The notes under the pieces: model-generated
Seen by the model: only the letters and a program-made list of their open reading frames with translations
The model's database searches: none
What the model was told of the DNA's origin: nothing
Assembly: GCA_028706315.1 (NCBI GenBank)
Contig: JAQWBP010000004.1
Coordinates: 76,846 to 117,304 of the forward strand
Direction: 5' to 3'
DNA: 40,459 nucleotides
DNA from: Syntrophomonadaceae bacterium
Lineage (GTDB): Bacteria; Bacillota; Syntrophomonadia; Syntrophomonadales; Syntrophomonadaceae
Part shown: positions 1 to 33,124 of the stretch, piece by piece
How positions within the stretch are numbered: position 1 is the stretch's first letter
Layout: the number at the start of each line of letters is the position of its first letter
Made by a program: the position numbers and the translations under genes

Positions 1-184
1 TAACAGGACAAATTCTTACTGACTCGCCAGGATGAACAATATCCAGGTCTAATTTAGCTAACCGTTCATCCTTGAGTTCTTCGAGAAGTTCTGCTTTGTT
101 TACATAGACTATCCCATCTTTAAATTCAGTTTTGGCACCGAATTTAACATCCTTGACATTAATATAGCCAAGTTCTAAACGCAT
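1..184 (-). CDS. grdE: Glycine reductase component B proprotein GrdE, 5' part only
   Basis: The 61 codons visible begin MRLELGYINVKDVKFG and run to a PGESVRICPV stretch, which matches the N-terminus of the glycine reductase protein B proprotein. In known systems this proprotein is cleaved to the alpha and beta subunits, with a pyruvoyl cofactor, and binds glycine for reductive deamination to acetyl phosphate. The ATG sits 6 bases after an AGGAGGG site. The gene runs off the left edge, so the cleavage site and the selenoprotein genes grdA and grdB that normally follow cannot be seen. It follows trxA by 18 bases and is clearly in the same operon. Identity rests on the N-terminus plus the grdX-trxB-trxA context. 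Confidence 0.9.
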   Translation of the reverse strand, partial: MRLELGYINVKDVKFGAKTEFKDGIVYVNKAELLEELKDERLAKLDLDIVHPGESVRICPV

Positions 185-202
185 AAATATCCCTCCTGCT
201 TT

Positions 203-529
203 CTATTTTTCCAAGTATTCTTTGATCTTTGCTTCTACGACGTCGGGACTAAGATCCTGGCCAGCACACTCGTCTATTTTTTCGCCATCTTTATAGAAGA
301 GCATAGCAGGCAAACCTAATACTTTCTGAGATATAGCTAGTCTTCTTTTTCCTGTGGTATCACATGAACAGAATTTAATGTTTTTACCAGCATACTTTTC
401 AGCTAATTCCTCTACATAAGGCATTAACTCCATGCAGCGTTCACATTTAGGACCCCAAAAATCAACAAATACAATACCTGAAGCTTTTAAGACTTCTTCT
501 TCAAAATTTTCTTTAGTAATTTCAATCAC
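203..529 (-). CDS. trxA: Glycine-reductase-linked thioredoxin with a C-E-R-C active site
   Basis: A 108-residue single thioredoxin domain. The active site reads FWGPKCERC (Cys29, Cys32) instead of the usual WCGPC, and the cis-proline loop GLPAM (Pro74) is intact. The segment RRLAISQKVLGLP resembles thioredoxins that sit in clostridial glycine reductase operons and reduce the selenoprotein complex. Additional cysteines (CSC near residue 54 and one near 88) are unusual for a thioredoxin. Start is GTG, with AGGAG about 11 bases upstream. It lies 25 bases after trxB and 18 bases before grdE, so it is almost certainly the electron donor for this reductase. Confidence 0.93.
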   Translation of the reverse strand: MIEITKENFEEEVLKASGIVFVDFWGPKCERCMELMPYVEELAEKYAGKNIKFCSCDTTGKRRLAISQKVLGLPAMLFYKDGEKIDECAGQDLSPDVVEAKIKEYLEK

Positions 530-554
530 TACTTATTCATCTCCTTTCCTGCAA

Positions 555-1763
555 TTAAAGCAAAGTTTTGAGGTTTTCCTCATTTATGTCTTTCAGGCTA
601 GTTTTAACCTGGCCATCAACAAATAATTGAACCATGGGAAGCTCATTACCAATGTTATAGCGTTTCTGAACTAGTTCGTTTCTGGTTGCATCAACTTTTA
701 CTAGTGATAATTTATCGCTATTAGCAGATACGAAACGGTCAACCATGCCAACTTTTTCGGTTCCTGCCATGTCCATTGGATTATAATAAGCAACTACTAC
801 AGGCTTAGTAGCATTTAGAACTTCACTATCCCATAATTCAGTTTCATGGACATATTTTTCTGCCGCTACTGCTGCAATCGCACCATCACTGGCAGCAGTA
901 ATTACTTGGCGAAGATATTTATCTCTTACATCGCCGGCTGCAAAGACACCCTCTACATTTGTGGCCATTTTTTCATCAGTTATAATGTAGCCGCGATTTG
1001 TAAGCTCTACTTGTCCTTTAAGCATTTCAGTAGTAGGGACACTTCCGATAAATACAAATACACCATTCGTGGGATATTCGGTCTCTTCACCAGTTTTAAT
1101 ATTCTTTAAAGTTATACTTTCTACTATTCCATCACCATTGACAGTTTGAACAGTAGAATTCCATATCCAATTTAGTTGGGGGTTTTTAAAGGCTCTTTCT
1201 GCCGATACCTGGTTAGCATCAACTTTGCCTTCTTCATGAATAACTATAACGGTAACATTCTCAGCGAATTTAGTAAGGTATTCTGCTTCTTCTATGGCTG
1301 CGTCACCACTGCCAACTACTACAACATCAAGTTCTTCAAAAAATTCTGCATCACATGTTGCACAATAGCTTACACCTTTACCACGCAGTTTACCTTCACC
1401 AGGAACGTTTAATCCTCTTGGTTGCGCACCTAAACCATAAATAACTGCTTTAGCAAGATATTCGCCCTTTTTGCCAACAATTTTTTTAGGATTAGATTCC
1501 AGGTCGAGCGAAACTACTATATCTTTTATGAATTCTGCACCCATAGACTCTGCATGCTCGGCCATTGCCTGGGTTAGACCCGGGCCTGAGGTACCCCGTC
1601 CAAAGCCAGGGTAATTTTCCAGTTCTGAGGTAGTTGCTGCCTGTCCACCCGGTTTGCCTTTTTCTATAATGGCAGTTTTCATTCTTGCTCTAGCTCCATA
1701 TACGCCTGCAGCTAATCCTGCCGGACCGCCGCCTATAACCAGGAGATCATATACATTTTCCAC
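555..1763 (-). CDS. trxB: Thioredoxin reductase with C-terminal thioredoxin-like extension
   Basis: Residues 1-310 are a standard low-molecular-weight thioredoxin reductase: an FAD-binding GGGPAG at 11-16, redox cysteines CATC (Cys134, Cys137), an NADPH-binding GSGDAAIEEAEYL, and a C-terminal FAD motif with AAGDVRD. The protein is 402 residues, about 90 more than usual. The extra C-terminal part (VVVAYYNPMDMAG to the end) looks like a thioredoxin fold in which both active-site cysteines are missing. The start is GTG. It lies 12 bases after grdX and is followed by trxA, so it probably feeds NADPH electrons through TrxA to glycine reductase. The extension could be a docking or structural domain; that is inference. 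Confidence 0.95.
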   Translation of the reverse strand: MENVYDLLVIGGGPAGLAAGVYGARARMKTAIIEKGKPGGQAATTSELENYPGFGRGTSGPGLTQAMAEHAESMGAEFIKDIVVSLDLESNPKKIVGKKGEYLAKAVIYGLGAQPRGLNVPGEGKLRGKGVSYCATCDAEFFEELDVVVVGSGDAAIEEAEYLTKFAENVTVIVIHEEGKVDANQVSAERAFKNPQLNWIWNSTVQTVNGDGIVESITLKNIKTGEETEYPTNGVFVFIGSVPTTEMLKGQVELTNRGYIITDEKMATNVEGVFAAGDVRDKYLRQVITAASDGAIAAVAAEKYVHETELWDSEVLNATKPVVVAYYNPMDMAGTEKVGMVDRFVSANSDKLSLVKVDATRNELVQKRYNIGNELPMVQLFVDGQVKTSLKDINEENLKTLL

Positions 1764-1775
1764 TACCTACTACAC

Positions 1776-2168
1776 CTACCTTTCGTTTAATAATGAAATG
1801 AGTCCATTGCCAATCAAATCCTTATCTACCAATTGCAGGTCTTCCCCCCAAAGGGCATCTAAATCTAGGGCGAATTTTTCATTTACCATTGCCTCAACTT
1901 TGTTAAGGCAATTTTGCAGTATTCTTAGACCCGCCATATCGGCTTCCTGCTTATTCGCTCCCACAAGAATAGATTTGTAAGGAGTTTGATTAGGTTTGAT
2001 ACTTCCCATCAAAGGATGAGATAATAACTTATGCCCTTCACCAACCATATTTAATGCTTTGTAAAGAACATTTTTACTGTGACCCTCCACAAAGCATATT
2101 TCCACATCATTGTCTATATCTTTAACCATTGGATTATTTGTTATGATTAAAATTTCATCACGAGTCAT
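1776..2168 (-). CDS. grdX: GrdX family protein
   Basis: About 130 residues beginning MTRDEILIITNNPMV, with LSHPLMGSIKPNQTPYKSI in the middle. This matches GrdX, a small protein of unknown function encoded in glycine, sarcosine and betaine reductase operons. An ATG 15 bases further upstream extends the frame, but it has no ribosome site and overlaps the GGGGG that serves the start chosen here. It is followed after 12 bases by trxB. Its function is not established; the location marks the operon as a glycine reductase locus. Confidence 0.85.
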   Translation of the reverse strand: MTRDEILIITNNPMVKDIDNDVEICFVEGHSKNVLYKALNMVGEGHKLLSHPLMGSIKPNQTPYKSILVGANKQEADMAGLRILQNCLNKVEAMVNEKFALDLDALWGEDLQLVDKDLIGNGLISLLNER

Positions 2169-2285
2169 TGTAATATCCCCCATTTAAGGTATTAGTTTAA
2201 GAAACACACCATGTTGCTACACATATAGTAAGTTTTTCGCCTTTTAGCGTATATTTTATCTTAAAAACATGTGAATAAATACCTG

Positions 2286-2912
2286 CTAACCAATTTGTTT
2301 ATTCATTTCACCGCAAGTATCATCTCGGTAATTTTGCCCTTGAACGGATAAAATTTCTATTTGTTTACTCATATTATCCTGGTATGTTTTATCTTTGATG
2401 TAGGGAAGATTTACTTTAACATTGATAATTGCGCTTTCCAATCCTCCATAAGCTTGTTGTGCTGCCACACCAATATCACTAATAAGGTTTTTATTAGCTT
2501 TATTCACTATTTCTTTGGCCAGGATAATTGTTTCTAAGCATGCTGATGCTATTTTTAAGGGTGATTCTGCAGCTTTCCGGAAAGCATTTTGCAACATAGT
2601 ATTCCGTATATTTTTTTGATCAGGGGTTTCTTTGGGCATTTTTAGAGTGTCCATTAGTGTGTTAAATGCGGTTATGTCTTCGTCAATCAAACTAGTAAGT
2701 GTCTTGCAAAGTTCATCACTTTTGTCCAAAGCTGTTTTTATTTCTTCTTCAACTGATTCATACCCTTTTTTGCCTAAAGTTAGACGACATACCATAGAAA
2801 TTAATGCGGCGCCCAAAGCCCCTGAAACTGCAGCTGCACTTCCACCACCAGGAGCAGGAGAGTTTGAAGCTAATTCTTCTAGGAATGCGTTAAGTGTCAT
2901 ATCTGCAATCAT
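2286..2912 (-). CDS. fchA: Formimino-THF cyclodeaminase / methenyl-THF cyclohydrolase family
   Basis: A 208-residue protein of the FTCD C-terminal family. The N-terminus carries the typical SPAPGGGSAAAVSGALGAAL loop, and the rest is helical. Family members convert 5-formimino-THF to methenyl-THF plus ammonia; some clostridial relatives are described as methenyl-THF cyclohydrolases. It starts 11 bases after ftcD, so the two steps that mammals keep in one fused protein are encoded by adjacent genes. Placement beside glycine reductase and behind a glycine riboswitch favours a role in formiminoglycine breakdown over histidine degradation, since no hut genes are visible. Cyclodeaminase versus cyclohydrolase cannot be settled from sequence. 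Confidence 0.88.
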   Translation of the reverse strand: MIADMTLNAFLEELASNSPAPGGGSAAAVSGALGAALISMVCRLTLGKKGYESVEEEIKTALDKSDELCKTLTSLIDEDITAFNTLMDTLKMPKETPDQKNIRNTMLQNAFRKAAESPLKIASACLETIILAKEIVNKANKNLISDIGVAAQQAYGGLESAIINVKVNLPYIKDKTYQDNMSKQIEILSVQGQNYRDDTCGEMNKQIG

Positions 2913-2923
2913 GTTACTTCTCC

Positions 2924-3826
2924 TTACAAATCAACTAAATGATTTTCTATTATTTGATCCCGGTTAAAATGTTCAAGTTTTAAGAAAAACTCGGCACAAC
3001 TTATAAGCGCTTCCTGAGGTAGTGTACCAATTATCTGAGTAGCTACTACTGATACACCATATCTTCCTGCTTCATTTTCAATCACTTTAAAAACTCTATG
3101 AATCGGTGTTTTGCCGATATCTAACATATTCATTGATACCGCAACCTGATTTTTTTCTTCAAAGAATAACCCTATTGCGCGAATAGTACTAAATCCGCCA
3201 CTGGGGCCTCGAACCATTCTCGCAATTGTCTTGGCAACATTAAGATCATTAGTTCCGAGCAACACATTTACAGCTACAAGCCCCGCTCCCCCCGCGCTAA
3301 CGATAGTCGCACCCGCAGTAGGATGTAAAGCTGCCGGGCCTATATCTGGAGCCCTTTCCGGTAAATGTGCTAGTTTCATTAAGCTTTCGAATTGCCCTTT
3401 ACGAATATAATCAAGACTTTCTCTTTTTTCATTACGTGCATTCTCGCCACTAAAATAGACTGGCACCTTATATCTTTTATATACTTCCTGTCCTATTTCC
3501 TCTGCCAGCTCTATACACTCTTCCAGAGTTACATTAGTAAGCGGAAATATAGGTATCGTATCTTGTGATCCTATGCGTGGATGGTTTCCTGATTGTTCCT
3601 CCATATTTATTAACTCAAAAGATTTTTCTGCCATATTTAGTAAAGCTTCTTTGAGTGGGGAAGGCTTTCCTATAATTTCTACGACAGTTCGATTAAAATC
3701 TGGGTCAGGATAATAGTCTATCAGCTTGACTCCTTCAATATTTCTAACCTGATCAACTATAGTCTCTATAACCTCTTTACGTCTGCCCTCACTAAAATTT
3801 GGAACTGCATGTATAAATTTATTCAC
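2924..3826 (-). CDS. ftcD: Formiminotransferase (FTCD N-terminal family)
   Basis: A 300-residue protein that transfers a formimino group to tetrahydrofolate. The N-terminal subdomain begins KFIHAVPNFSEGRR. The motif NHPRIGSQDTIPIFPL carries His82, at the same position as the catalytic histidine reported for the mammalian enzyme. The C-terminal subdomain follows (GPAALHPTAGATIVSAGG). The start is GTG. It is the first gene after the glycine riboswitch and terminator. The family usually uses formiminoglutamate, but in purine-fermenting clostridia the substrate is formiminoglycine. The glycine-sensing leader and the downstream grd genes point to formiminoglycine here, which is inference. Confidence 0.92.
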   Translation of the reverse strand: MNKFIHAVPNFSEGRRKEVIETIVDQVRNIEGVKLIDYYPDPDFNRTVVEIIGKPSPLKEALLNMAEKSFELINMEEQSGNHPRIGSQDTIPIFPLTNVTLEECIELAEEIGQEVYKRYKVPVYFSGENARNEKRESLDYIRKGQFESLMKLAHLPERAPDIGPAALHPTAGATIVSAGGAGLVAVNVLLGTNDLNVAKTIARMVRGPSGGFSTIRAIGLFFEEKNQVAVSMNMLDIGKTPIHRVFKVIENEAGRYGVSVVATQIIGTLPQEALISCAEFFLKLEHFNRDQIIENHLVDL

Positions 3827-4017
3827 TTCTCTTTATACCCCCCTTCCTAACTAGTACCAGGGATATTTTTATATATTTATGAGAAGCTGGATTCGCATTC
3901 TAATTATTTATGTATTTTCATAATAATTTTCTACAGCTTCAATATTAAATCATTTACTTTATTTTGTCTTTATTAGGCAATTTTATGCCCTATATGGTAA
4001 ACATTTGGGATTCGCAT

Positions 4018-4049
4018 AAAAAAGTGCACGAGGTATTACTACCCCGCGC
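4018..4049 (-). terminator. Intrinsic terminator of the glycine riboswitch expression platform
   Basis: Arms at 4026-4035 and 4040-4049 form a 10-bp hairpin with two G-U pairs and a 4-base loop, followed on the minus strand by six T residues (4018-4023). It lies directly after the P1 stem of the second aptamer and about 190 bases before ftcD. A riboswitch-controlled read-through decision is the simplest reading. Confidence 0.8.
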
Positions 4050-4217
4050 TCTGTATAGTTTACCTGAGAGTTTCACCTAAAGGTTTGCTCCTTCGGCGTC
4101 TTGCGACTTTCCAGAGTTGCGTCTAGACACGGTCCTTGGCACCTGAGAGTTTCATTATTATCCGGGAGGATAACAATTTTCTCCTTCGGTATGAGTTTTA
4201 TCTCATTCTCCCGTATC
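4049..4217 (-). promoter_or_regulatory. Tandem glycine riboswitch (two aptamers)
   Basis: Two copies of the glycine-aptamer core are visible on the minus strand. Aptamer 1 (4217-4127) has ACCGAAGGAG, then TGAAACTCTCAGGTGCCAAGGAC, with a P1 helix pairing ATACGG with CCGTGT. Aptamer 2 (about 4117-4049) has GCCGAAGGAGCAAACC and GGTGAAACTCTCAGGTAAA, with P1 pairing CTCTG with CAGAG. This is the classical cooperative tandem arrangement. The downstream terminator suggests that glycine binding permits transcription of ftcD, fchA and the grd genes. Confidence 0.93.
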
Positions 4218-4526
4218 CTTCATTCGCTACACTTTCACTTTTTCACGAAGCTTGAATAATCAATCAAAAAATTATTATATTGTATTGTAATTTGTCGTTT
4301 CTGTTGCCTTTATTGCCGTAGTAACCTCGTATTAGTTTAAGTGTAATCGGCGTTTTTAGTATTTATCTAATACAGTTTTATGTAATATTTATAATTTGTC
4401 TTTTTTAAATTTAGCTATATTGTCGTTTACTTGTGAATCATGTCGCTTTCTACATGGATAATATACCGCTTTGGTCTCTAGATGTCAACAGTTGATATGT
4501 TATCATTTCTATTATATTAATACAAT
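4218..4526. other. Intergenic leader between spmB and the glycine riboswitch
   Basis: AT-rich, with no convincing open frame on either strand. The recognisable element is the promoter at 4460-4488. That leaves about 220 bases of untranslated leader before the first aptamer, in which I see no further structure. I find no clear terminator for spmB here. Confidence 0.6.
4460..4488 (-). promoter_or_regulatory. Sigma-A-type promoter for the riboswitch/ftcD operon
   Basis: On the minus strand a perfect TTGACA (4488-4483) and TATATT (4465-4460) are separated by exactly 17 bases. It points at the glycine riboswitch and is the best vegetative promoter match I found in the window. Confidence 0.7.
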
Positions 4527-18157: not shown

Positions 18158-19354
<1,197 letters not shown>

Positions 19355-33019: not shown

Positions 33020-33124
33020 CTCTTATCTTTCAGGATTAGTCCTGCAGGATTTGGCACCATACCTTAATAGGTAGGCGGTTGCCGGGCTTCATCGGGCCAG
33101 TCCCTCCACCTCTCTCGATAAGAG
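33020..33124 (-). promoter_or_regulatory. SAM-I (S-box) riboswitch
   Basis: On the minus strand P1 pairs CTCTTATC with GATAAGAG. Inside are the signature AGAGGTGGAGGGA, then CTGGCCCGATGAAGCCCGGCAACC, then GGTGCCAAATCC, and a CCTGCAGGACTAATCCTGAAAGA end. All the SAM-contacting segments are present. The aptamer begins only 23 bases after the tatA stop, so either a promoter lies within tatA or transcription reads through from tatA. Confidence 0.96.

Follow-up and report, generated by a model that had tools for sequence, protein, structure and literature searches.

A formimidoyltransferase grouping with those of purine-degradation loci heads a glycine reductase operon behind a tandem glycine riboswitch in a Syntrophomonadaceae bacterium

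Why should a gene annotated as glutamate formimidoyltransferase, a name which belongs to histidine degradation, stand first in an operon for the fermentation of glycine? The question is raised by ftcD in a stretch of 40,459 nucleotides (the window; contig C26:76846–117304) from a Syntrophomonadaceae bacterium, the genome of which comprises 2.52 Mb and is rated 99.9% complete; relatives in the same family carry the names Syntrophomonas and Thermosyntropha. In the window ftcD-fchA-grdX-trxB-trxA-grdE constitute one run, all on the minus strand and downstream of spmAB-type genes. The reading which we favor as a whole, with a probability of about 0.55, is that of a glycine-fermentation operon whose first genes encode the final enzymes of anaerobic purine degradation.

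The product of ftcD (2924–3826, minus strand) scores 337.5 bits against TIGR02024 (cut-off 221). Based upon its clade and residue signature it is a Xau-type formimidoyltransferase, and probably a glycine formimidoyltransferase. In a tree of 47 FtcDs, 28 of the window type form one clade [support 100/100, stem length 0.77], and when a profile of this type (A1) was run against 398 genomes of the phylum the window-type FtcDs scored at least 427 bits and all others at most 357. Comparison of these 28 with the 19 other FtcDs revealed fixed differences (window type/others) at positions 44 (F/H), 78 (Q/H), 90 (T/V) and 129 (N/A). Furthermore, R180, N189, Q229, Y126, C7 and T50 are invariant in the 19 and replaced in nearly all window-type sequences. 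Pig and rat FTCD, aligned with HMMER and inspected by eye, carry the Hut-side residues C7, T50, H78, Y126, A129, R180 and Q229; the window FtcD lacks the set common to the pig and bacterial Hut enzymes (R180, Q229, Y126, H78 and others). Loss of the Hut-invariant Arg 180 would fit a substrate without a glutamate side chain. As the AlphaFold model has a mean predicted local distance difference test score of 73.8, with weak loops at 132–156 and 208–213, no argument about the pocket was built on it. Judged by its sequence, the window FtcD is a type distinct from the Hut enzyme.

The neighbors of its relatives indicate where such a type is at home, since the window FtcD groups with FtcDs of xanthine-degradation loci and apart from those of Hut loci. 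At locus L135 ftcD is accompanied by genes for a xanthinase-like amidohydrolase, an isochorismatase-type hydrolase, UbiX, UbiD and bacterial microcompartment shell proteins, and by a purine riboswitch [78.5 bits]. At L141–L143 it occurs with a split xanthine dehydrogenase, a purine permease, deaminases, a Cyclase-family hydrolase and a serine dehydratase, and at L136, on the same contig as L055, genes for FtcD, a Cyclase protein and an amidohydrolase lie behind a purine riboswitch [55.1 bits]. An ftcD of this clade is found directly behind a purine riboswitch twice (L135 and L136/L055). Adenine-deaminase-like and, mostly, Cyclase proteins are encoded with it in Moorella, Desulfobacteraceae, Dethiosulfatarculus and others. 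The combination of xanthinase, UbiD, deaminase and imidazolonase with or beside FtcD is present in L135, in L141–L143 and, taken as genomes, in G043 and G044, two relatives discussed below. The scan of named genomes used two peptide patterns only, and divergent purinolytic clostridia may escape it.

By their gene content these loci represent the Xau pathway predicted in 2019, the final step of which was assigned to XauG, a formimidoyltransferase acting on formiminoglycine (PMC6620236). From the order of the reactions, the adenine-deaminase-like protein is probably the 4-aminoimidazole deaminase and the Cyclase-family protein probably the imidazolonase. A xanthinase gene cluster has since been identified, according to PMC12507026, which cites Tong et al. 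2023. Glycine formimidoyltransferase activity is known in purine fermenters, although the C. acidurici genome revealed no gene for it (PMC3519856). The suggestion of an earlier, sequence-only reading of the window that FtcD acts on formiminoglycine is well supported for this enzyme type by its separate clade and its purine-locus orthologs, which make formiminoglycine the predicted substrate.

Three further observations concern gene arrangement. In several purine loci two genes, of approximately 420 and 330 codons, together encode the molybdenum subunit of xanthine dehydrogenase (L142 5230–7510, L146 14304–16552, L171 7048–9369). On a Paracoccus plasmid (L151 4494–8696) genes for a Rid protein, an M20 peptidase, an adenine-deaminase-like protein and a Cyclase-family protein follow one another with no ftcD among them; this may be a related route that does not use folate. 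At L139 (3476–9506) an arginase-family hydrolase is encoded upstream of ftcD, with tripartite ATP-independent periplasmic (TRAP) transporter genes and FTCD_C downstream.

What, then, controls the window operon? The sequence-only reading had placed a tandem glycine riboswitch and a terminator upstream of the six genes, and both are confirmed. Two aptamers (4223–4120, 58.7 bits, and 4116–4049, 37.6 bits; Rfam RF00504, gathering threshold 32) with a linker make up a tandem glycine riboswitch at 4049–4223 on the minus strand, followed by an expression platform in the form of an intrinsic terminator (4026–4049, minus strand) of 10 pairs with a 4-nt loop and a T tail. The leader folds with z = −3.5 relative to shuffled sequences. 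The strong promoter of the sequence-only reading corresponds to a promoter-like site, TTGACA(N17)TATATT (4460–4488, minus strand), which matches the consensus at 11 of 12 positions, although the region holds no more sites of this kind than shuffled sequences do. A scan within the run revealed no second promoter or terminator that stands out. In C. difficile a glycine riboswitch lies upstream of grd and glycine is the inducer (PMC11477304, PMC10880999); by analogy with that riboswitch, glycine would turn the window operon on by preventing termination. The genome has two other glycine riboswitches, both at contig ends and each upstream of a gcvPA copy, so that the glycine signal covers glycine cleavage as well as glycine reduction. 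These tandem elements (L009 1–787 and L010 1–561) are followed by the start of near-identical gcvPA genes; counting the gcvPA in L007 as well, there are probably three copies in the genome.

Downstream of ftcD, and likewise on the minus strand, an FTCD_C or fchA-like gene (2286–2912; PF04961, 230 bits) specifies a putative formimino-tetrahydrofolate (THF) cyclodeaminase or methenyl-THF cyclohydrolase; its product scores 224 bits against the FchA equivalog model NF045657, under the cut-off of 275. Then come grdX (1776–2183; NF038093, 97.6 bits, cut-off 40), trxB (555–1763; TIGR01292, 354 bits), a thioredoxin reductase gene with an extra C-terminal thioredoxin-like domain (PF00085, residues 306–398), trxA for a clostridial-type thioredoxin (203–529; NF047697, 147 bits, cut-off 140) and the first 61 codons of grdE (1–184), recognized from the translation in the window and in L007. 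Base 1 of the window is an assembly edge inside grdE, next to approximately 100 N. The same ca. 120 bases are found on both sides of this gap (window 1–122; L007 about 19125–19348): overlapping contig ends were joined as though separate. Past it, in L007 and in the same direction, lie the remainder of grdE, then grdA, grdB, grdC, grdD and fhs (formate-THF ligase), as one would look for in a complete glycine reductase operon. It is selenium-dependent: grdA has an in-frame TGA in the context ECFV(TGA)TAAG, grdB has an in-frame TGA together with a SECIS_4 (selenocysteine insertion sequence) element [57.4 bits], the SECIS being detected in grdB only, and SelB is encoded in the genome [385 bits, cut-off 242]. 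Elsewhere in the window there is a S-adenosylmethionine riboswitch (33020–33124, 98 bits).

In the reading which we favor, glycine would bind the tandem riboswitch, prevent termination and switch on the operon. FtcD would transfer the formimino group of formiminoglycine to THF, freeing glycine, and the FTCD_C protein would release ammonia to give methenyl-THF. A cyclohydrolase, and Fhs run backwards, would yield formate and adenosine triphosphate, while glycine reductase with its own thioredoxin system would convert glycine to acetyl phosphate. Gene content, riboswitches, clade membership, synteny and the lack of detectable upstream genes are observed; the substrate and the direction of Fhs we infer.

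The locus in relatives allows one to ask how this arrangement came about. The window order is spmB, glycine riboswitch, ftcD, fchA, grd and fhs. In G043, of the same family, spmB and a glycine riboswitch are followed by adenine-deaminase-like and Cyclase genes and then by the contig end. G044 (Thermosyntropha) has Cyclase, ftcD, fchA, a glycine riboswitch, grdX to grdD and fhs. In both genomes there are genes for xanthine dehydrogenase and for a xanthinase-like protein (70% identity), the latter next to those for an isochorismatase-type hydrolase and UbiD, which makes a nearly complete purine-to-acetate gene set. The proposal that one sensor stands before both halves of the pathway holds in the window but not in G044, where the riboswitch separates fchA from grdX. 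No riboswitch remnant was seen in the fchA-grdX gap of the window, which measures 102 bases only, and pairwise riboswitch identities of 0.60–0.70 do not tell the ancestry of its copy apart. In G034 ftcD, fchA, grd and fhs follow one another with no riboswitch, and in G002 the order is ftcD, trxBA, grd genes and fhs. The window locus probably descends from a G043/G044-like (Thermosyntropha-type) locus in which ftcD is separated from a glycine riboswitch by the adenine-deaminase-like and Cyclase genes, a layout pieced together from two genomes. On a simple reading the series represents stepwise loss, the purine half first and the glycine reductase half next, the adenine-deaminase-like and Cyclase genes having presumably been lost in the window lineage rather than never gained; the opposite direction is also possible.

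Several observations weigh against our reading. The window's genome yielded neither a molybdenum hydroxylase of the xanthine dehydrogenase family nor an ortholog of the adenine-deaminase-like or the Cyclase protein, and no xanthinase ortholog either, its amidohydrolases being just 31–34% identical to xanthinase; UbiD was not searched for there. A dedicated purine-derived pathway in this organism, as the sequence-only reading had it, was therefore not borne out. As the deaminase-like and Cyclase genes are absent, formiminoglycine would need an outside source or an unrecognized route, and no transporter for it was identified in this genome, an amino-acid permease in L007 being the sole one nearby. 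In G003, G004 and G018 the fetched loci have ftcD, with or without fchA, next to fhs and contain no grd; the purine genes tested are also missing from G003 and G018. Finally, the FTCD_C protein could be merely the one-carbon cyclohydrolase of glycine oxidation. In close relatives without purine genes, a part of which also lack grd at this locus, the ratio of nonsynonymous to synonymous change (dN/dS) in FtcD is 0.03–0.05, similar to that in Fhs; many synonymous distances are saturated and the closest pairs alone count. Since strong purifying selection persists without purine genes, and partly without grd, ftcD is evidently used, and since relatives keep ftcD-fhs without grd, it has some use outside the proposed energy pathway.

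One such use might be folate repair. Serine hydroxymethyltransferase in glycine-rich cells makes 5-formyl-THF, which blocks glycine cleavage; FtcD would remove this compound by transferring its formyl group to an amino acid, so protecting one-carbon flow, and FchA and Fhs would be ordinary one-carbon enzymes of glycine oxidation. Formiminotransferases can indeed substitute for 5-formyl-THF cycloligase, and an Escherichia coli mutant lacking the cycloligase fails to use glycine as nitrogen source (PMC3223725). The gcvPA genes behind the other two glycine riboswitches agree with this, as does the conservation of ftcD beside fhs at the dN/dS given above in relatives without grd there. However, the substitution in the literature occurs where the cycloligase is missing, whereas its gene (PF01812) is present in the window's genome and in every genome examined, including those with ftcD-fhs only, which weakens cycloligase replacement as the main role; other members of the clade, moreover, sit in purine loci. 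We regard folate repair as a tentative and rather unlikely explanation. It is also doubtful, and if anything slightly more so, that the organism lives by scavenging, with purine fermenters leaking formiminoglycine, or a related formimino-amino acid, which it would import and ferment via the operon. The undetected upstream purine genes would suit such a life, and window-type ftcD does occur with TRAP transporter genes in Desulfobacteraceae, Synergistota and one Bacillota genome (L051, L052, L060–L062, L139); FTCD_C is near it in part of these, and the fetched loci contain none of the purine genes looked for. The window operon, however, has no TRAP genes next to it, and the papers found do not document free formiminoglycine in habitats of this kind.

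The database name, finally, would make FtcD an ordinary glutamate formimidoyltransferase for histidine, with the other hut genes elsewhere. This is very improbable, and we rejected histidine degradation as its role: the window's genome has no PF00221 match and hence no hutH, all its matches to hutI fall under the cut-off, and so no Hut pathway is present. Within the family the Hut-type enzyme is a different protein, approximately 40% identical to the window FtcD and found in four genomes; in both loci read gene by gene it is part of hutH-hutU-ftcD-hutI-FTCD_C operons, the names being taken from the sequences. Neither a complete hut pathway nor a lack of the other grd genes downstream, either of which would have told against the sequence-only reading, was found; its observation is confirmed and its interpretation partly supported. 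The hut operons at L033 and L034, from the same family, adjoin genes for cyanophycin synthetase-like, peptidase S51 (cyanophycinase-like) and further amidohydrolase-like proteins. No FtcD was found in a scan of viral contigs. Seven plasmid records have one, at approximately 45% identity or less, and the one opened, from the glycine fermenter Peptoclostridium acidaminophilum, is part of a hut operon.

All parts of the window operon are of known kinds. It would share with the predicted Xau pathway the latter's last step, from formiminoglycine to glycine, with an FtcD from the clade of xanthinase, UbiD and xanthine dehydrogenase loci; unlike in that pathway, the upstream enzymes are undetected and ftcD belongs to an operon for glycine reductase whose riboswitch is of the glycine rather than the purine class. 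In common with the C. difficile grd operon (PMC11477304, PMC10880999) it has the riboswitch, grdX, trxB, trxA, grdE, grdA, grdB, grdC, grdD, selenocysteine codons and SECIS, but it has ftcD and fchA between riboswitch and grdX, fhs after grdD and the extra trxB domain. The Hut operon has the same enzyme superfamily and the same pairing of FtcD with FTCD_C, but differs in fixed residues, at 40% identity, and in the hutH which this genome lacks. The moonlighting formiminotransferases (PMC3223725) are also tied to glycine metabolism; here, unlike there, the cycloligase gene is present, as in all relatives examined. What is new is that a purine-type formimidoyltransferase and glycine reductase are linked in one operon behind a glycine riboswitch, and that this formimidoyltransferase is kept where purine genes are missing. 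In the literature searched, no paper contained both "glycine riboswitch" and "formiminotransferase."

The clade, with its fixed residues, purine-riboswitch neighbors and glycine reductase operons, is a defined protein group to assay, and allows "glutamate formimidoyltransferase" genes of anaerobes to be re-annotated. Within the family, the series from a purine-to-acetate set through ftcD-fchA-grd-fhs to ftcD-fhs alone, presents the tail of a pathway under selection without its head. It is conceivable, though we think it unlikely, that anaerobic communities share formiminoglycine, or some formimino-amino acid like it, as food. Bacteria which lack purine-opening enzymes (this one, for example, and the TRAP-linked Desulfobacteraceae and Synergistota) would import it and ferment it to acetate, formate and ammonia by means of FtcD, FTCD_C, Fhs and glycine reductase, and glycine would be the on-signal. 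With the series at hand, the use of formimino compounds by syntrophic communities can be tested directly.

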